Source: Saccoglossus kowalevskii (taxonomy: Eukaryota > Hemichordata > Enteropneusta > Harrimaniidae). From it: 22,497 nt of DNA. Position 1 is the first letter of the stretch; each line of letters starts with the position of its first letter. Both the position numbers and the translations under genes were made by a program. Location of the stretch: contig NW_003158724.1 of the NCBI RefSeq assembly GCF_000003605.2, positions 1,477,083-1,499,579 of the forward strand. The letters run 5' to 3'. This document shows positions 5,578-18,376 of the stretch, piece by piece. A model generated the notes under the pieces. That model saw only the letters and a program-made list of their open reading frames with translations. It did not search any database and was not told where the DNA came from.

Positions 5578-8500
5578 TCAGCGTTCACCATGGTTACCAA
5601 CAACATCATCCACATTTCTAACCACATCTTCAAAGTGCAAGTTTTCGGCATTGTATAAATTTTCTTCTCCAGGAGTAGTTTCATTGAGTTGCACCCCAAC
5701 AATAGGTCGGTGGCAAAGAGGGCATTTATTTTGCACATAGAGCCATTTTCGCAAACACAATGGATGGAAATAATGGCCGCATGGAGTGACTCTTGCATTT
5801 AACAATTCCTCAAAACATATTGCACAAACATCATTATGTTGATCTAGTTGCTCCTGGGTTGCCAGTGGCAACGAACTGACTCTCCTCATTGCATCTCTGC
5901 GTGACAGGAAACTTGTCCATCCCATTTGTGCCCGCTGCCAGACGTTGAAATAACAATGAACAATGATAACAGCTGCTCCAATCATACTGTACTCGCTATA
6001 AAATGATTCCATCCCACCGTACAACAAAACAGAAATTGCGACTAAAAATTCTAAAATCCTGCAAAATCCCTTAATGGCGTACACAATGTCATCTAAATTC
6101 TCCCAGGGTTCTCGGCGATGACTGTCAATCATAAAAAGCGCATATGTCACAGTTGAAGCGAGTACTTGAATGGACGTGAGTATACAGCTTGAAACGATTA
6201 TGAGTAACCAGAACTCGGGGTCAAAGAACGTACACACCAAGTACGTCATGTACAATGGAAACACAAACAAGAAAACACACATAGTGAGCACGCGTAAATG
6301 GCGGATTGGATTGCGGTTATGTGCGGCTGTCAGTGACATCAATATCGGATCAGTGATTTCATGCATAGATTGTACAGTTGAGGCGAAAACCACAAAAAGT
6401 ACAATACTAAGGAGAAAAATTCTCTGTACGCGTTTCATTTCCAGCAATCCCGTCTGCAGCGACAATAGCAGCAATGTGATGCCTTCAGTCCAGCCCCTAT
6501 GTAGCATGTTATGATTTACGAATCCTTCTATCCCCTGCAAGTACACTTTACACATCGTCAGTATGAAATACGCCACATATGACACAGTATAACACAAACC
6601 CACCAAGCTCCAGGGGGTGTCACAGCAATCAGCAATGGCAGCAAGTAAGACAATCACCCAGTTTTCATTAAATATGGGATGACTTTTGTTCGAGAAGTAC
6701 GAGTAAAGCTGGATGCAGAACAAAATGAGCCAGAAAATGAGATAAACAATGGGGACAAACAAACGGCTATACATGGCAAGAACGACACTGACGAACCCAT
6801 AGATTTCCATGTACTCCTGTAGTGTATGGTATCCTGCCATAGCAAGGTCATATGGAATAAAAATATACTTGATCATAAAGAAAGTTAGTTGTAGAGTTGT
6901 GAAAGCCATAGCAAACGTGTGAACAGTGCGTAGCTCCGAAAGTGGGATGATTGAAGCCGCTCTCAAGATAAGCGGTAGTAGATATGCTGTGAACGTCCAG
7001 TACTTCTCACAACTCATTAACTGGGTGCAGGATAAAATGATACAGAGTTGAGCCATAGTGAACTTGATCCATCTCTGTGAGCAGTCTACATCAGTAAAGA
7101 TGAAACCATGGTAACCTGACTCCAATTCCATTTGAATGTAATTATTGGAGAGATAATGAGCACCAATCAGAAGTACACCAGTAAACATGTATGCATATAG
7201 ATTTAATAATTGTTGGAATGATAAAATCTGAGCCATGAAAGCTGACAAGTAACCTGAAACAAAACATAAAAATGTAGCCAATTAGCTTATTTTAGATTAT
7301 AGTGGAAACCAAAATCAGAGAAAGTCAATGTTTTTACCATTTTTTATATGAATATTGAAATAACGAACATAATTAGCATACATGTATCAATGCTTATTGA
7401 AAATTCAAGTCTGGCAGCGTCACCATCCTTAAAAAGGACGAGAGAACACAAAAGGTTTAGAAAGAGTTTTGTGCTGAATGTAGAAAAAATTGAAGGCGTA
7501 ACATTATGGGTTTTTATTGAAGATAACATGTATAATTATACATATGTCACCATATATAACGCCATAAGTTGCAGCGTGCCATAATTTTGCGGTATTTTAC
7601 AAGGTATTTTCATCCTACCATATAAGGAAATGCGAATTCTAAATATGGAACGATTACGCGCATAAACATCCTTTAATAATAAAAACAAACATGGCTGTCA
7701 CCAGGGTTTGGCCGGACTCCACACAAAGAAGTCCACTGATTCTGTTCTAAACTTTTTGGATTTCGACATTCCCATGATGTATCCTTAGAAGGGTAAGATG
7801 TATAATGATAAGGTTATTATGAGGATACATGTACCTCAAAGTATGCAAGTAGGCCATTGCATCAACCTCCGCTGCGCGTCTGCCAATACTCCCTCTGTAC
7901 TGTTTTCGTGCATACACTGTACTTTGAGATACAGATATCCTCATAATAACCTTATGTTATCATACACCTAGCCCTGTAACATATGGCTCAATCAGATCAT
8001 AAGAAAGACCATGAACACTCTTGAACATTTATAAAATCTAGCAATTGTATTCAAGCAGTCACGTTATAAATATCTTCAAAATAATAATAAGCTTGAGAGT
8101 ACAGCTGACTGTACTGTATCAATACTATTGATAACTAATGCAATTTCAGGGAACAAGTATGGCTGCCAGTTGGCCATTTTGAATCTGATCTAAAACAAAA
8201 ATGGAGACCTTGTATACCATCACAAATACATTTGTATCAGTTCATGTACATGAACCTCTTAGAAAATGCTACAGACAGCAAAAACACAGAATTTGTCAAG
8301 AAGCACTAGTTCTATAACATTTTATGAAGATATAAAGGGGATGTTGTTAATAATTCACAGTCATATCTGTAGTCGTACTGCTCATGAAATTACCGGAGTA
8401 GTGTGAATCAAAAATGTATTTTGACATTGACCTCAGCAGCCATTAATGATTAAAAGATGATGGTCATCGTGCAGAGCATGTTCAATTTATTCTACAAGCA

Positions 8501-11102
8501 GTGTACACATCTTAATATGGGACCCATATCAAACAAAACACATTTAATCAAATAATAATTAAAATATGAACAATATCGTTAACAGAACTGTTGTACATGA
8601 CATAACTGTATGACAACAAATACATGACAGTATTACAATGTATTAATAGCTCTATGTATAATGATACAGATACAACTGTAAACAAGTTATACCATCAGTT
8701 TTCACCAGGTTTATTTTTATAAACACCTGGTCACAAGAAAATCTACATATAGCCATTGTAATAGAAATTTTACCTGTATAAAGTACAGGCATAGTACCAC
8801 ATCAGACTGGGTGATGATGATCATAGGGCCAAAAAGGTTATTGCTTTTTAATAATTACTGCCTATATACTGGTACCTAATACTCGGTCACTATCAGGAAC
8901 TCTGTTACCTAAGGGTTTACATGTACCTGCCAGGACTTCTGTGTGACTTACTCTAGACTGTGAACCTTGCCCTACTCCATGTTTGCTACATCTCTACATT
9001 GCATTTACAACCCTTGCGTATACATGAATAAACATGAGGCCTGGACACCTCCTCATAAACAAAATGCGATAACCTAGGGACAGTGAGCAGTTATGTTGCC
9101 ACATGTACATGTATAAAACGACATGGTACAAAGAATTGTTGTACTTGATACTGACACTATTGCTTTATACTGTGCAAAAAAATCCAAATTTTGATATTAC
9201 TATGTAAAATCACAATCAATACAAAATGGGCCTGCTATCTTAAAAAAGACTACAACAATGGCATTATACATTTTGAAATATTTACTAAGTTCGTGTTACA
9301 GAATCTTGGCATGTGCCGAAAATTTCAATCATTTGTATTTGCTGAAGGATTACAGCGTATACGTTTCGACTGAGCTCATGCCGAAATCACGCCCTCATTC
9401 GTTGATTTGTACATCGACCTAAACACGACAGATGATACACAAACAATGATAAAAATAATTACTTTATTGAAATCATATGTATTTGGTATTTATTATAAGT
9501 CATCACGGACATGAATGGAAAAGAAGAATTTGCAGAACAGTTAATTTTTCACATCGATGTAGAATTGCAAGAAGAATATATATTACATGAATATAAGTAG
9601 TCGACAACGTTCGGCATTCATTTCATTCATTGCTACTGCATCCAACCATATCTAGCAGCATTGCCATGTCATACATGTACTAGTATGAATCAGTATATGT
9701 TATCTTAAATTCACTGCCAAGGGAATGATTTTGATTCATACCAAGCATTCAAGTAGTAAATGTCAGCACATGTTGAATTTCAGTCCCATTTGTAATGTTA
9801 ACGCCACTATTGTAAATTGCAAATTTGTAGGGCATGGCCTAATGATACTTGTTTGTGCTGTGTAAACCATTTTTATAATACAGTGTAATGTAGCAACATA
9901 GATTAAATTGACACATGAACATTGTAATTCACGTGATATGTTAAACTAAAATTTTTTTAGGATTTTGTTGAGGTTATTGCCTCATTAGAAAATAGAAAAT
10001 TTAAACACGACAGAGCCATTTCTGCTTAGACATGTTATCAAATACTTAAATAATGCTTTTACTAAAAGACTAGCACTAACTAGTAGTTAAGTTGATGTTT
10101 ATATACACCATATCAAAAAAAAAAAACTTTATTATTTACAAACCGAAAAAAAGAATTGTAACTTCTTTACGGTTATAATAAAGGTTATTATTATTATTAT
10201 TATGTGTAACTTAATACAAGCTCTGCAAATACTAATAAGCATTGGGCACAAAAAAACACACAAACCATTTCTTTCAGACATTTATTGCATTAGTAATGAT
10301 CTCACGATTCACTCGACTTCAAATGGATCTTATTAATCGCATAAGGCACCAGTTATATACCTGAATTTTATAAATGTTTGTTTACCAGTACCAGTACATC
10401 GCAGTCACTCTACTAGAGTGACTGTGAGTACATGTAATATATACTCTGCAAAACAAACCCATTCAATTTACCTTTATAAACATGCATAAATTTTGTAAAT
10501 TCAAACTGAAACAATTGAATAACATTTGAATGTTTCCAAATGATGTTGCACAATACGCTTGTTGATTGGCTGGTTGGATTTCACAACATGAACCATTAAC
10601 ATTTATGAACATGAAGGAAATAGGTTTGTAATGTTGAGAGTGATTTATTAATTTTCATTACAATTTTTATTTAATTTTTGTTTTTCTTCCAATTTTTTTC
10701 CTGTAAACTTTATATTACAATTTTAACAAGAATAAATACATTTTATAGATGGAAGAAACATTATGATGAAGTTTGTTTTGAGATTAAACTGTCAATGTGA
10801 CGTCACAAATGTTATTCATTCGTTCACATGACAGACAATATCTCTAAGGTTACGAGGAATACGGACCCATCATGTAATACCAATGCAATTATATAATTTC
10901 AGTGACAGTACATACCAAGAATTTTCATAACTGTTGCCACGTAGCTGATATCGATGAAGGTCCATTTCACAACTTCCGCCTCCGCCTGCAACACGTCGAC
11001 AAGATCAACACGATACAGTATTTCCAACAAGAAGACAGCCGGGACCCTCACCAGAGCATTCGCCCATCGTTTCAGGCGGTCCTGGACCCGATCCTGCTCC
11101 AT
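5578..11102 (-). CDS. TRC8/RNF139-like polytopic membrane RING-H2 E3 ubiquitin ligase (diverged paralogue)
   Basis: Two coding exons on the minus strand, 11102-10916 and 7253-5578, are joined by a GTATGT donor and a TTTCAG acceptor across a 3.66-kb phase-1 intron that splits a Gly codon. The product is 620 residues. The start at 11102 is fixed by an in-frame TGA one codon upstream (TGA GCA ATG). Many hydrophobic segments fill residues 20-500, followed by a RING-H2 finger at about 539-576: C-x2-C-x11-C-x-H-x2-H-x2-C-x10-C-x2-C (CAIC, TPCGHYFHPLC, CPLC). All eight zinc ligands are present. RNF139/TRC8 and its relative RNF145 are ER-membrane E3 ligases with a sterol-sensing-like region that act in ER-associated degradation and sterol control; the ARVTPCGHYFH and LRKWLYVQ text fits RNF139 better. 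Odd points: the block that is SGCDSTLTVLGMS in the plus-strand copy reads ADCCDTPWSLVGLC here, and the post-RING tail is only about 44 residues. This suggests a fast-evolving duplicate with intact catalytic potential. Confidence 0.93.
7798..7968. mobile_element. Foldback MITE-like element
   Basis: The arm ATAAGGTTATTATGAGGATA at 7808-7827 has its exact 20-base reverse complement at 7936-7955. Similarity extends on both sides: GATGTATAATG against the complement of CATACACC outside, and CTCAAAGTA-TGCA against the complement of TGCATACACTGTACTTTGAG inside. The whole unit is about 170 bases with a roughly 60-base GC-richer loop. Structure and size fit a MITE or foldback element. No coding capacity; target duplication not resolved. 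Confidence 0.7.
10127..10203. repeat. Bulged hairpin followed by TTA microsatellite
   Basis: CTTTATTAT (10127-10135) pairs with ATAATAAAG (10175-10183), and immediately inside AACCG (10141-10145) pairs with CGGTT (10170-10174). An A run precedes it (about 10115-10126) and a short TTA repeat follows (about 10186-10203). The combination resembles the end of a small retroposed or foldback element, but I cannot name a family. Confidence 0.45.
10402..10424. repeat. 23-bp perfect palindrome
   Basis: CAGTCACTCTA, one central C, then TAGAGTGACTG: two exact 11-base arms around a single base. It lies about 490 bases inside the intron of the minus-strand gene, counted from its exon 1. It could be a dimeric factor-binding site or a cruciform-prone sequence; no function is shown. 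Confidence 0.6.
10797..10806. promoter_or_regulatory. Full-consensus CRE palindrome
   Basis: GTGACGTCAC contains the perfect palindromic CRE/ATF site TGACGTCA (10798-10805). It lies about 110 bases downstream of the minus-strand exon 1 donor, where proximal intronic elements often sit. CREB/ATF-family binding is the expected reading; occupancy is inference. Confidence 0.5.
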
Positions 11103-11105
11103 TGC

Positions 11106-11153
11106 TCAATATGTATCTTCAAATCTCGTACTCACAAAACCAGAGACAGACAT
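11106..11153 (-). other. uORF before the minus-strand RNF139-like start
   Basis: A 15-codon frame (ATG at 11153-11151) ends at TGA 11108-11106, one codon before and in frame with the main ATG. If transcribed, it could restrain initiation at 11102. It also shows that the main coding region cannot begin further upstream without stop readthrough. Confidence 0.4.
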
Positions 11154-11602
11154 GACTTGGTTGAATCAATATCCCATCCAACACCCCCAGAAGATTGGCA
11201 GATGGCAAAGTTTGTTGACCTCGTGACGTTACCAATCTCGTAGTCATCACATAGAATTGAGGGATAAGAAGACTAAGGAGGATTTACATTTTGATGTAAA
11301 CGACGAAAAACAGCAACAAATAATTACGGGAAAGGCAATATACCGCAAATAGGGTTTACACAAATTTACTAGTTAGGTTAACACATTGAATTTAACGTTG
11401 ATGGCGTGTATATCCTCGTTCACAAGATTTATGTTGAGAAATTTATGTTTTAGGGATTGTTCAAGAGACAACTTTGATAATTTATAATGACTTAGTTCAC
11501 ATCAAATACTACTAGGTAAAAATAATATTCGTAGTTGACTGATGGTGTGGCAGATCATATTGAGTACAATTTGTGGACCTCAAACATGGACGAGCCAGTA
11601 AC

Positions 11603-11611
11603 CCGGAAGTG
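11603..11611 (+). promoter_or_regulatory. ETS-family site CCGGAAGTG
   Basis: An exact match to the GABPA/ELK-type core that is common in TATA-less metazoan promoters, about 110 bases upstream of the plus-strand RNF139 start codon. It suggests transcription starts nearby. If so, the uORF at 11614-11634 might fall within the leader while the ATG at 11586 might not. Confidence 0.45.
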
Positions 11612-11613
11612 CA

Positions 11614-11634
11614 ATGGCGAAAGACAGTCGGTGA
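11614..11634 (+). other. Short uORF before RNF139
   Basis: ATGGCG begins a six-codon frame that closes at TGA 11632-11634, 86 bases before the RNF139 ATG. An overlapping 20-codon frame in another phase runs 11586-11648 and is in the main RNF139 frame with a stop. Relevance depends on the unmapped transcription start. Confidence 0.35.
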
Positions 11635-11720
11635 AATTTTCTTTCTGAAGTAACATTTTCATACTGTCGCGTAATTTTTGGATATTTTCTCGAGAAATCG
11701 AGTTGTCAGTGTCAAACAGC

Positions 11721-14700
11721 ATGCAGGGAATTCATGGAATAGCTCACCAACCTGCCCAGAGTTATATAAAATTGAAAGTCCTCGCTATTTTAGACGTTGT
11801 TTTACGTGTACCATCAGTTTTTATGGTCGATGCACTGTTGAATTATCAAATTCCTCTACCATGGCATACCCGGCCTGTTTTGGCAGTAATTTTAAGTATT
11901 ATAGGTAAGTATTTCGTGTTTCATAACAGCGTTACGACAGCGAATTATCCTCGCTTCCAATCATTTCACAGTCATGCCTGCCACTCGCACATCACTCTCA
12001 CAAATCAGAGTGCTAAACATAACTCTAACTTCAGATTAAAGCTGCAAGCAGCGTCACAGGGGCCCAAGCTATCAGACGAATTATGTAATTAAAGTGATCA
12101 ATGAATTGCCATTAAAGTACTTTGAATGATTTGTACAATGAGGTTGACGTGCCGATGGTTCCTTCTTTTTACCTGGTTTGGTTATCGAGATATTGTTTTT
12201 AGAATATGCAAGAAGCCATGTGCTCATGCATATATTAATTAGTTCACCTGACCATATATGTTCATCTGTTATTTTATTCAAATCTCTTGTTTAATGTCAT
12301 CATAATTCAGCGAATTGCCATTAAAGTACTTTGAATGATTTGTACAATGAGGTTGACATGCTGATGCTTCCTTCTATTTACCTGGTTCGGTTATTGAGAT
12401 ACGGTTTTTAGAATATACAAGGAGCCATGTGCTCATGCATATCAATGAGGTTACATAATCATAAATGATATTCTCTTATATGAGTTAATTTTTTTGGTTG
12501 ATGTCTTCATTATGGCACTGGTTGCATGTCTTGTTCTGCAACAGTGTTTCAGATATGACAATTATGCATATTAATGAGTTCTGTTATCTGTTATTTTAGC
12601 CAAATCTCTTGTTTAACATCATCATAATAACACCGGTTTCATCTTCCTATCTGCAACAGTGCTTGAGATATAACAGTTATGCATATTAATGAGTCCACCT
12701 GACCATATATGGTCATCTGTTATTTTATTCAAATCTCTTGTTTAACGTCATCATAATTCAGCAGGTTTCATCTTCCTAACTACAACAGTGCTCAAGATAT
12801 AGCAGTTATGCATATTAATGAGGTTAGAAGCCCCCACCCCATGGGCGTGTAGCCACACGACCTAGCCATGTGACATTCAGGGAAAAGAATGTGACTTTGA
12901 GTAGAATTGACATACACAATTTCAGCCAAATCTGACCAATACAACACATGTAATTGCAGAAGTTTCATTTTCACAAAATCCAAGATGGCGGCCAAACCAC
13001 GTGACATATCGAAAATATATTATTTTTCTCATATGTAGCAATGTTCAGGCATGTTATATTCAAAACCAGCAGTTACTTGGTTGAATCACCTCTGAAAAAC
13101 AAATGTCCAAACTTTTTGTCAATTTTGCCTAAAATCCAAGATGGCGGCCAAACCATGTGATTGATCTGAAATCTTTTTAAAGTTTCTGAAAGAGTTTGAT
13201 ATAGAGATGCCATTCAGCAATATTGAACGTAATCCCTCAAGTGTGGCATGAGTAAAAAACTACTTCCTGTTTAGAAGAAACCCAAAATGGTGGCCAAACC
13301 ATGTGACCAATCATAACAATTTTTTCAAACGTAAGTGAGCTTCATATATAGAAGCAAAATACTACATATGAGAACATTCTGCTTGGTGGTTCTGATTTTT
13401 AAGTGTTTTTTGCCGTTTTTAGGATAAAACAAAATGGCGGGAAAAGTCACATGACCGCTAAAGTTTTTATTGCTGATATCTATTACACATGAGTTGTACT
13501 ATATACCATAAAAAAGACGCCTAAACCCTCAGAAAGTGGTTAAACAGCCACTTCCGGTTTTATTTCAATCCAATATGGCTGGCAAACTAATTGACCAATC
13601 GAAATTCTGAAAGCATGTTGCACCAGTTCACATTAGGGACTATCAGTATAGAGCATTATCAGACCATTCTGTTCAGCGGTTTTCTCAAACGGCTTGACAA
13701 AAAAGTTACGGAAAAAAGAAAGAAGAAAAAACCGGACGATAAGAATAGGGGCCACGCCCTACAGGCTTGGGCCCCTAAATATATTGTACACATACCCAGT
13801 ACTTGTAGTGATTTTAATGGCATACACGTAGCTCCCTCTGTCACTTTCGTTACTGTGTTCAGCGTTTGTGTGGAATAGGGATCCGTAGTAATCTTTTGAA
13901 AAATACAGTTTTCATGATACATACCAAACCATTTCTTGATAAATAAACTTCATAATGACCTTAATACCGGATTCGGCTGATACCCCGCCCATCCTAAACC
14001 CCACCCATGGGCGATGTTTCAAATAGTGGGCGATGTTTTGGTCCACACATTGCTTGACTGAACCAACAAACATTTTTACAGACCCCAATTTTCCCGTCCG
14101 ACATCTTGTATCGAGCGCGCTATTTCAAATATGACGCTAAAATAATTCACTGTGAAGCCGAAAAGCATTAAAAACTTCAATAAAACCAATGCTTTATACG
14201 AATTGTTGTTGCGTATTATTACACTCGAATAAAGCCTACGCTTGAAAAGAATGTTATTTACGAAGTTTAAAATATCCAAGCCTTCCTAGTTCGAGCCTCT
14301 TGGTTGTTATCAGTAATGTTTAATCTTTGTCTGTATCGCATTCCAGACAAAATGTCGGTAAACAAGAAATGGGTGAACTAAAATGTCTCCTGCGTTTCAC
14401 ATGCGACATGATTATTAAAAAAACACGCAGAGTTAAGCGGTTATGTACGTTCTATAAAGCTAACCTTGTACACATAATCTTGTACTGACGTGTTTTTTTC
14501 TCCAAAAAAGACGTTCTCTTTCAGTTAACCCCCAGTTAGCTCTTCGCGTTCATGGTATTTGTGAGAGTTAAAAGATTTTTTGAACACATGACAAGTAACT
14601 ATATTGATTTACGTACGTTACGTCATGTACGTTCTATAAAGCTAACCTTGTACACATAATCTTGTACTGACGTGTTTTTTCTCCAAAAAAGACGTTCTCT

Positions 14701-17700
14701 TTCAGTTAACCCCCAGTTAGCTCTTCGCGTTCATGGTAGTTGTGAGAGTTAAAAGATTTTTTGAACACATGACAAGTAACTATATTGATTTACGTACGTT
14801 ACGTCATGTACGTTCTATAAAGCTAACCTTGTACACATAATCTTGTACTGACGTGTTTTTTCTCCCAAAAAGACGTTCTCTTTCAGTTAACCCCCAGTTA
14901 GCTCTTCGCGTTCATGGTATTTGTGAGAGTTGAAAGATTTTTTGAACGCATGACAAGTAACAATATTGATTTGCGTCAAGCTGGGTGGCCCGAATTTAAA
15001 TATCAGTGCGTGAACTCAAACGCGTGGTTATTAGAGTTCAGTCGAAATGTACGTGAATATAGCGATCGAAGTGCGCCAATGTTTATGTTTGCGTAATTAT
15101 AACGAATGCAAGGCATTATCAAGTCGGTATTATTGAAATATTCACAGACCCAATACCCCGGGTCAGTGCCCTAACAATAGTAAAAATTAACTTGAGTTTG
15201 CGTAATTATCATGAAAGCAATACATTTAATACAAAGTTGAAATATTCAGAGCTGGTACAATATTGTAAACAAATTTGCGTAATTAGAAAAGCAGTGCACT
15301 CAGTAAACGACGTTGATATATTCAAAGCCAGTACAGAATTGCATACAAGTTGCGTAATTACAGTACCTTCGGATTATAATAAAAATTTTACTAGATCGAC
15401 GCGCGGACCGCAAAAGAAAAAGGTTGCTAAGGTAACGCACCAGTTCAGCGCGTGACTTGGGGTCAAACTTCGGTCAACACACACTTAATCACCGCATCAC
15501 CGCGCAGCAAGTTTCGCAAAGAAGTACTTCAAGTTCATTTGCGCCCCAAAATTATGTCGCTAATCACTCAGTTGTCGCAGCGTGTGTTGTGTCATGTCCA
15601 TGATGCACCCCGTTTCGACTTTGACTTGCTTTTCCTTCTTAGTGCATGTTCTTGTTCACGTAAAATGCGACCTCTCACCAATGTATTAAAACACTTTGAA
15701 TTTATACTTTGCATGATTATATTTGGTCAACGCGAAACATTATTTTTCTAGACCATTTCTATCAACGCAGGGTTATTTTTCCAGACAAGATGGGCCTCGT
15801 AATATCTGCCAAAAGATCGGTCCACATTTTTCTAAAAAAAAAATCGATACCTCCATAAGATCGCCCAGGGCGGGGTATCAGCCGAATCCGGTAATTTGAA
15901 AAAAAAAACCTACACTTAGATTGCCTAAACATAAAGAAAATGCCCCAAAAGTTTAAATTTGCGAACTAGTAAATGTGTTCAGGAGAGCCATTTTCAGCTC
16001 TCCAGTCATTTTCAAATAACAAGATACGAGTATGAACAACTTGAATATGTCAGATATTTTGATTTGTGATTTAACTAGCAGTCATGTTAGTTTTATAAGG
16101 GAGGTAAGTAAATGGTGTGAAATATTTTTTTTTCAAATTAATAAAATTTTGCTCATTAAGGAAAGGTAAGGAATCCTCATCGTAAATGGTGAGCAAACTT
16201 TCTTCTTGACGGGCCCCACTTTGAACTAAATGAGGGTAGAAAAGTCAGCTACTATTTTAAAAAATCATGAGTTGGAAATGCATATAGTGCTATATTGAAA
16301 AATAAAAAGTGTAAACAAAAAGTTCTGGATACTTTCAGACATAGAAAGATTTCCCTAGATTTTCACAATTTACATCAATTACTAGTATCCTTACCTGATT
16401 TAAGGTTTACTCAGCAAATTCTGCTCACCACTTATCCAATCTCAATTTTTAAAAATTTCTTGAATGTGCCTTGACAGATTTCAAATGTATAAAAAAGATT
16501 TAACATGACTCAAAATATAATACTTGTAACTATGTTTCCTTTCTTTTCTCCAACAGGTTTAGTACTTGCATCTGTGGCATTCTTTTTATCAATCAGAGTT
16601 TTATTAAAATTTTATGGTGCCGTCATTGCAATATCAATCCTGGGCACGTCATCCTGGTGGAATCAGGTTTTCATCGGCCAGTTCAATGAAGCCATTGAAG
16701 AAAGTCAATCTGTGAGGGACTTTATAGAAAGCTCTGACTTTCAAATGTATCTGTTTGTGCAACTTGCCTATGCAACTGTTTTCACTGTGACGATACGAAC
16801 ACAGCATTTTCTCATAACAGAGGTGATGGTGTTTACCGCATTCTTATTTCCCATGATAGTAAGACTTAATCTACCTCTAGACTTGGAAGAAACTAATACT
16901 TCGCAGTATGCAGTATATACATTTTCGCAGTATTTTGCGGTTGCTGCACCAATGTTGGCATTAGTAGCAACTGTCGCAATGAAAATATCATGGATATACT
17001 ATACTACAAAATATTCACTGATGCTCGTGAAACACATCATTCGTAATTATGGACTGCAAATTTTCTTAGAGGATCAGTGGCAGAGATTACATGTGCCAAC
17101 TGTCTTACGCGTCTTTTGGCTGAGCAGATTTGCTTTGCAGTGTGTATTTCTCACCATTATGGTGATGTCTCAGGAAGAGGATAAGTTTGACTTGTTGAAT
17201 GCTGGAAAAGTATGGCAAATATTCACCAATCTTATGATCAGTGGTTGCGATTCCACTCTCACAGTGCTTGGGATGAGTGCTGTTGTTTCTTCAATCACAC
17301 ACCATGTTGGGATATTCATACAGAGCATAATTGGCAGCAACGTTGATGAGGAAAAACATATGGGAACTGTGTCAGCGATTCTCTTCTTCATCCTGGCACT
17401 GCAGACTGGTTTGTCTGGTTTAGCACCGGAACAGCGTCTTACTCGACTGTATCGTAATTTCTGTCTTCTTCTAACAGCAATCATGCATTTTGTACACAAT
17501 ATGGTGAACCCAGTCCTCATGTCTCTGAGTGCGTCCCACAACTTGTCGGTGTATAGACATTTAAGGGTGGTGTCTGTTTGCCTAATACTTCTGGTTGTTG
17601 CACCATGGTTGATGATTCATCTTTGGAGTAATTACCATATCAGTACATGGTTGCTGGCTGTCAGTGCATTCTGCGTGGAAGTCTGCATTAAAGTCATAAT

Positions 17701-18376
17701 CTCTCTAATGGTATACTCTTTATTCATCATTGATGCTTATCGAAACACATTTTGGGAAGGCCTTGATGACTATGTTTATTATATAAAGGCATTTGGTAAC
17801 AGTGTGGAATTTTTATTTGGAATATTTCTTTTCGGAAATGGTGCCTGGATAATGGTGTTTGAATCGGGAGGCACCATTCGTGCTGTTATGATGTGCATAC
17901 ACGCTTATTTCAATATTTGGCAACAAGCAAAGTCTGGCTGGAAGATTTTTATGAACCGACGCACTGCGGTGAAAAAGATTAATTCTTTACCTGAAGCCAC
18001 ACTGGACCAGCTGAGTGATCGCAATGATGTCTGTGCAATTTGCTACCAGGACCTAATAACTGCGAGAATTACACCTTGCAATCATTTTTTTCATAGCCTA
18101 TGTCTACGAAAGTGGCTTTATGTACAGGACAATTGCCCTCTCTGTCATTCTGATATTTACCAAACTGAAAAACCAGATGATGCACCCCCTGAAGGTGATG
18201 TAAATAATGCTAATGATGATCAAATGCCTGACAATGAAAACTTGCACCATAGACATGTACATTTGCCAGAGGGCGCTGTTGTTCCTGATCCTTCAAATCC
18301 TTCACCAATAAATTCTAATGATCAGGAAAATAATGTACCCCGTAGTTCACAAAATGATCATGAACATTTAGACTGA
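11721..18376 (+). CDS. RNF139: E3 ubiquitin-protein ligase RNF139 (TRC8)
   Basis: Two coding exons, 11721-11904 and 16557-18376, are joined by donor G|GTAAGT and acceptor CCAACAG, again phase 1 inside a Gly codon. The product is 667 residues, near the vertebrate length. ATG 11721 is the first in-frame ATG after the upstream stop at 11646-11648. Family blocks in order: LRVPSVFMVDALL near residues 28-40; multiple membrane spans to about 510; LRVFWLSRF; ISGCDSTLTVLGMSAVVSS; FFILALQTGLSGL; NPVLMSLSASHN; GLDDYVYYIKAFGN; MNRRTAVKKINSLPEA; RING-H2 at about 554-591 (CAIC, TPCNHFFHSLC, CPLC) with all zinc ligands; then an Asn/Asp-rich polar tail of about 76 residues. TRC8 is an ER-membrane E3 ligase with a sterol-sensing-like region; it acts in degradation of ER clients and in sterol-pathway control. 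The conserved core marks this as the orthologue and the minus-strand neighbour as the derived copy. The intron is largely mobile-element sequence. Confidence 0.96.
12103..12440. repeat. Two-copy tandem repeat, ~209-bp period
   Basis: GAATTGCCATTAAAGTACTT recurs at 12103 and 12312. Similarity continues through TTTGTACAATGAGGTTGAC, CTTCCTTCT, TTTACCTGGTT, TTTTTAGAATAT and GAGCCATGTGCTCATGCATAT-like sequence with scattered substitutions. The copies are diverged and therefore not recent. Both lie inside the element at about 12033-13779. Confidence 0.8.
12480..12832. repeat. Diverged ~128-bp tandem array
   Basis: A unit carrying CTGTTATTTTA, CAAATCTCTTGTTTAA, CATCATAAT, GGTTTCATCTTCCTA, CAACAGTGCT and AGTTATGCATATTAATGAG recurs from about 12587 and 12714. 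A more diverged copy precedes it (about 12484-12580) and a partial match lies at about 12264-12310 in the neighbouring array. Each unit ends in the same TATGCATATTAATGAG block. Confidence 0.75.
12970..13600. repeat. Five-copy ~145-bp array iterating an AAGATGGCGGCCAAACC module
   Basis: The module recurs at about 12980 (CCAAGATGGCGGCCAAACC then ACGTGAC), 13136, 13282 (AAAATGGTGGCCAAACC ATGTGACC), 13429 (AAAATGGCGGGAAAAG TCACATGACC) and 13570 (CAATATGGCTGGCAAAC). The spacing is about 141-156 bases. Copies 3 and 5 are also preceded by ACTTCC(T/G)GTTT. The ATGGCGGC core resembles a YY1 site, CACGTGAC is an E-box and ACTTCCGG is ETS-like, so each unit looks like a miniature promoter-type motif cluster. 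This may be coincidental. Confidence 0.75.
14443..14981. repeat. Three-copy 181/182-bp tandem satellite
   Basis: Copies begin at 14443, 14625 and 14806 with ATGTACGTTCTATAAAGC. The first two copies differ at a T homopolymer and a few substitutions, and the third diverges only near its end. High identity among copies implies recent unequal exchange or slippage, younger than the arrays in the neighbouring element. The unit is rich in ACGT tetranucleotides (TTTACGTACGTTACGTCATG). The array is internal to the transposon at 13966-15892. Confidence 0.92.
15088..15362. repeat. Degenerate array marked by TTGCGTAATTA
   Basis: TTGCGTAATTA recurs at about 15088, 15198, 15274 and 15349, the last three spaced about 75-76 bases and sharing nearby (G)ATATTCA-type and GTACA-type words. 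A modest open reading frame crosses it on the plus strand, but it looks like repeat translation rather than a gene. Internal to the transposon at 13966-15892. Confidence 0.6.

Follow-up and report, generated by a model that had tools for sequence, protein, structure and literature searches.

Two genes of one membrane-ligase family that lie head to head and have an intron in common raise the question of whether they are a recent local duplication or an old pair that has stayed together. We addressed this question for a stretch of Saccoglossus kowalevskii DNA (C4771:1477083-1499579, 22,497 bp; hereafter the window), of which positions 5578..18376 hold two complete two-exon genes of the TRC8 family, divergent and mirror-imaged. 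The gene models were derived from open reading frames, splice sites and matches to the protein family (Table 1). GT donors and AG acceptors are present in both introns, and the predicted products are 667 aa long for the gene on the plus strand (plus gene) and 620 aa long for the gene on the minus strand (minus gene). Each intron interrupts a Gly codon in phase 1, and these two glycines occupy a single alignment column. An earlier note on this DNA had described two full-length genes of the same family diverging from 618 bp, each with two coding exons and a phase-1 intron splitting the aligned Gly codon; the coordinates and start codons were confirmed by our models, and the intron position by the alignment. 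The same note held that an intron-containing gene had been duplicated and not retroposed, and this stands: retroposition as the origin of the second copy is ruled out because both genes keep the intron.

Table 1. Features of the two divergent genes, with positions counted from the first base of the window
Feature	Position	Strand	Remarks
Plus gene (predicted RNF139 orthologue), coding exon 1	11721..11904	+	start codon 11721; donor G|GTAAGT
Plus gene (predicted RNF139 orthologue), coding exon 2	16557..18376	+	most of TRC8_N, RING-H2, stop
RNF139 intron, phase 1	11905..16556	+	contains a 2.9-copy 181-bp tandem array and further repeats
Minus gene (predicted RNF145 orthologue), coding exon 1	11102..10916	-	start codon 11102; donor G|GTATGT
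Minus gene (predicted RNF145 orthologue), coding exon 2	7253..5578	-	most of TRC8_N, RING-H2, stop
RNF145 intron, phase 1	7254..10915	-	alignment column is that of the RNF139 intron
Inter-start-codon interval, 618 bp	11103..11720	.	putative shared promoter

The family membership of both products is clear from their domains. Pfam TRC8_N (PF13705) matches the plus protein at 3e-157 (524.9 bits) and the minus protein at 9.4e-129 (430.9 bits), compared to a cut-off of 27 bits, and each protein carries a C-terminal RING of the C3H2C3 (RING-H2) pattern with all eight metal ligands intact, located at residues 554-591 in the plus protein and 539-576 in the minus protein. The two proteins are identical at 186 of 619 aligned positions (30%; 30.4% in the comparison with the human sequences below), with an E value of 4e-82, and their similarity is beyond chance.

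The earlier note took both genes to be RNF139 paralogues. We compared the two proteins with provisional human RNF139 and RNF145 references, which are not database-derived, were entered once the window proteins were known, and are partly verified. The references are 664 and 663 residues long, with a mutual identity of 26.5%, YLYF at 81 and Cys at 537. The mutual identity agrees with the 27% given for human RNF145 and TRC8 (PMC6292692), YLYF is a published motif of RNF145, and Cys537 of the RNF145 reference agrees with the C537A mutant of mouse-derived RNF145 (PMC5322959, PMC5656429). Of four RNF139 oligos given in PMC8349318, three encode peptides identical to the RNF139 reference, and the peptide of the fourth agrees with it at five of six residues; the references contain at least one wrong residue. 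Against them, the plus protein is identical to RNF139 at 298 of 637 positions (46.8%) and the minus protein to RNF145 at 262 of 615 (42.6%), each window protein having the TRC8_N domain and RING-H2 in common with its human counterpart, and the cross pairs reach 28.4% (plus with RNF145) and 25.7% (minus with RNF139). Among the informative columns of the four sequences, 66 join plus with RNF139 and minus with RNF145, compared to 4 and 9 for the alternatives. An LG+G4 quartet built with the same provisional references places this pairing 207 log units above either alternative; its internal branch measures 1.28 substitutions per site and its tips 0.38-0.74, and FastTree gives the pairing a support of 1.000; the tree holds four sequences only, and its AU test used 1000 replicates, too few according to the program.

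Because the identities, the informative columns and the quartet likelihood all pair them in this way, the plus gene is, on the sequences compared, the RNF139 orthologue and the minus gene the RNF145 orthologue. The phylogeny suggested as a check by the earlier note, run here as a quartet with the provisional references, gave the outcome that the note had named as its refutation, with the minus protein beside RNF145. Its description of the sequence was right, its family assignment was wrong for one gene, and its interpretation is partly supported. The suggestion of a lineage-specific pair is likewise not supported, because the two window genes have different human partners, which points to a duplication that predates the split of the Saccoglossus and vertebrate lineages. 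Two traits reported for mammalian RNF145 are missing from the minus protein. YLYF, which is linked to INSIG binding (PMC6292692), is aligned with YAYM in the minus protein, and in place of the reported C-terminal extension relative to RNF139 the minus protein has a tail of 44 aa after the RING, where the plus protein has 76 aa. Neither YLYF nor the extension was taken as a criterion for RNF145 descent.

We consider it probable, with good confidence, that the plus gene is a one-to-one orthologue of RNF139/TRC8 and the minus gene a one-to-one orthologue of RNF145, and that their adjacency is a remnant of the ancient inverted duplication that produced them. A single two-exon gene for an ER-membrane E3 would have been copied in inverted orientation before the Saccoglossus and vertebrate lineages parted. 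The Saccoglossus lineage would have kept the neighbours together, with the identical phase-1 intron in both and an adjacency that presumably dates to the duplication, and the vertebrate lineage would have separated the pair, probably with intron gain in RNF145. An in-place ancient inverted duplication is the simplest history because the copies are adjacent, mirror-imaged and have the intron in common. In human, RNF139 is located at 8q24.13, on one clone with TRMT12, TATDN1, NDUFB9 and MTSS1 and not beside RNF145, and comprises two exons, the second being cited for the protein-coding region (PMC2727492), while RNF145 is located at 5q33.3 and has 16 exons (PMC7966793). The two coding exons of the plus gene are thus similar to the two exons of human RNF139, in contrast to the minus gene, whose two coding exons compare with 16 in human RNF145.

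Whether the two genes are also regulated together is a separate matter. From the layout, one short divergent promoter common to both genes is plausible and would probably drive both. The pair resembles head-to-head pairs with bidirectional promoters in being divergent and less than 1 kb apart, although the 1-kb usage is for start sites (PMC7817982) and the distance here is taken from start codons, and the partners at this locus differ in being paralogues. That the genes are adjacent and ancient but have separate promoters without co-regulation is somewhat unlikely in our judgement, and this arrangement would be compatible with the descent proposed above. It is favoured by the weak motif evidence in the interval. 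We tried 17 patterns, and most counts are within chance: TGACGT occurs at 11224 (as many in 145 of 500 dinucleotide shuffles) and there are two CCAAT-type sites, one at 11232 (233 of 500). Two low counts provide modest evidence, namely the ETS-type CCGGAAGT at 11603 (as many in 5 of 500 shuffles) and ATGGCG at 11401 and 11614 (2 of 500). The motif scan found no DR4 (LXR-type) or SRE site in 11103-11720, and a search of the interval for relics of inverted symmetry gave short matches only, the longest among the matches listed being a 12-base self-palindrome.

Against separate promoters, the start codons are only 618 bp apart, and the interval keeps its CpGs (observed/expected 0.95), while values of 0.07-0.62 were obtained for 27 of the 37 blocks of 600 bp into which the window was divided; yet similar levels are reached by a block in the RNF145 exon and by parts of both introns. 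Of the 10 higher blocks, five fall in the RNF139 intron with its repeats and one in the RNF145 intron; the first exons with the interval account for two, RNF145 coding exon 2 for one, and another straddles the start of this coding exon. A CpG island was rejected as promoter evidence, as the value of the interval stands out only when compared with the depleted parts of the window, where 25 of 213 segments reach it, and is ordinary over the window plus 200 kb of flanks, where the median is 0.93 and 635 of 1334 overlapping N-free segments reach it. The combination of CpG-poor transcribed DNA and an undepleted gap between the first exons would fit gene-body methylation and an unmethylated promoter. 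More tentatively, the head-to-head order of RNF145 and RNF139 could be ancestral in deuterostomes or bilaterians, with mirror-image, lipid-responsive ER ligases on one promoter, held together by shared regulation, until vertebrates broke the linkage and freed RNF145 for LXR control and INSIG binding.

The ancient inverted duplication has to be weighed against other origins of the adjacency. A TRC8_N profile search of the whole Saccoglossus genome (572,110,611 bases in 4830 contigs, four candidates scored) gave two matches, both of them this pair; the count is a lower bound, as long N runs on the scaffold could hide a further copy, and within that bound no third match was found. It is improbable that an ancient RNF139 and an ancient RNF145 were made neighbours again by a secondary rearrangement in this lineage, as might be supposed from the separation of the human genes and from a comparison limited to this genome and the human loci, since the chance that one given pair among ~20,000 genes becomes divergent neighbours is estimated at ~1e-5 to 1e-4, and each gene is the other's only relative found in the genome. 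Lower-bound searches for three families of human neighbours, with TRMT12 and NDUFB9 left out, placed TatD (four matches) on contigs C934 and C4178, IMD (three) on C1761 and EBF (six) on C4443, with no match of these families on the window scaffold C4771; the scaffolds are too short for such searches to exclude linkage. TatD and IMD stand for neighbours of human RNF139, and EBF for EBF1, a neighbour of RNF145 in the human genome. In the literature searched, of which coverage was partial with subscription papers mostly outside it, we found no paper on a head-to-head pairing of RNF145 and RNF139.

An assembly artefact, in which two loci were wrongly joined, is very improbable. The surroundings would allow for it, with an N share of ~40% in the 200 kb around the window (80,369 of 200,000 bases) and N runs of 8506 and 12236 bases, possible assembly gaps, directly at the window's two edges. 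However, the window itself contains 0 N, so the two genes are not joined across a gap, and both are complete with intact splice sites; misassembly, which the earlier note had named as a possible objection, is therefore not indicated. Finally, a recent, lineage-specific inverted duplication yielding two RNF139 genes, for which the common family, the head-to-head order and the identical intron position might speak, is hardly credible and is rejected on the identity levels and the quartet, given that the 30% identity is barely above the 27% between human RNF139 and RNF145 (PMC6292692), that each copy is nearer a different human protein with the likelihood 207 units worse otherwise, and that the genome would then seem to be without RNF145, no third TRC8_N match having been found.

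We return to the reading of the two genes as ancient RNF139 and RNF145 orthologues to consider their function. Mammalian RNF139 and RNF145 are ligases of the ER with ties to the control of sterols and fatty acids, and they are studied as two related enzymes with distinct parts in controlling cholesterol and membrane lipids. RNF145 has been linked to HMGCR (PMC6292692), as well as to SCAP and ADIPOR2, the E2 UBE2J2 works with both ligases in mammals, and it is contested whether TRC8 takes part in HMGCR turnover (PMC6292692). The window proteins likely have the same basic ligase activity as their mammalian counterparts, because both RING and membrane domain are retained, and would probably act in lipid and sterol homeostasis as E3 ubiquitin ligases of the ER membrane. 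A profile search of the same genome gave four INSIG matches, on contig C5.

The RINGs of both window proteins also match those of HRD1 (synoviolin) and gp78 (AMFR) at the sequence level, although these two belong to families other than TRC8. For HRD1 the membrane part before the RING matches as well (8kes, 2e-22 with the plus protein and 2.7e-14 with the minus protein). In phmmer, the membrane helices and RING of the plus protein scored 83 bits against this HRD1 chain and 47 bits against a RING-only HRD1 chain, and the minus protein scored 56 and 42 bits, respectively; the kinship of the window proteins with HRD1 may extend past the RING. No chain named RNF139 or RNF145 was among the 37 and 51 matches of the two window proteins. 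In prokaryote contigs, 32 pattern matches to the minus protein included no relative, and viral contigs searched with each protein gave no pattern match; none was expected in either.

The pair is the old RNF139/RNF145 set that is also present in humans, there on two chromosomes, and not a new duplicate. This corrects a tempting error, as similarity and adjacency do not imply a recent duplication here. An RNF145-RNF139 pair that has stayed head to head is of modest interest for the history of the gene family, and its worth hinges on presence in other phyla. A genome with both genes still flanking one short interval would show how RNF139 and RNF145 arose and with what initial regulation, and would offer a simple test of their former co-expression.

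Several minor features of the locus, its surroundings and the genome were recorded. The mitochondrial cox1 frame of the assembly is free of AGA and AGG codons and contains one AAA codon and 10 ATA codons, several of these ATA codons at positions usually occupied by Ile; in view of the known mitochondrial codes, this usage suggests an enteropneust hemichordate. In the RNF139 intron, the 181-bp tandem unit is repeated at 14443-14976 (2.9 copies, 97% alike), and 12098-13611 contains degenerate repeats of several sizes, among them four 54-nt copies around a motif like CCAAGATGGCGGCCAAACCATGTGA, of which three are 67-80% alike to the first; these repeats may be an old mobile element. Between 13801 and 15600, also intronic, CpG observed/expected rises up to 1.47, compared to 0.07-0.62 in the 27 depleted blocks. 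At the left edge of the window, a 22-nt unit repeated five times in tandem (24-134) stands just before a glutaredoxin-like exon, which belongs to the 3' part of a gene on the plus strand (234-1733). Pfam Glutaredoxin matches were found in two of the three exon pieces scanned, and the gene is presumably glutaredoxin-3. With the splice sites chosen by visual inspection, the frame of its first exon runs uncleanly into the next exon, indicating a splice misjudgement or a sequence error. Seven flanking ORFs of the scaffold were scanned, and four are without a match; L029:463-1941 has a below-cut-off match to the KH-like domain of DTX3L, L033:2981-4003 is a rhodopsin-type receptor, and L036:4103-5233 is a second receptor-like ORF, just under the cut-off.
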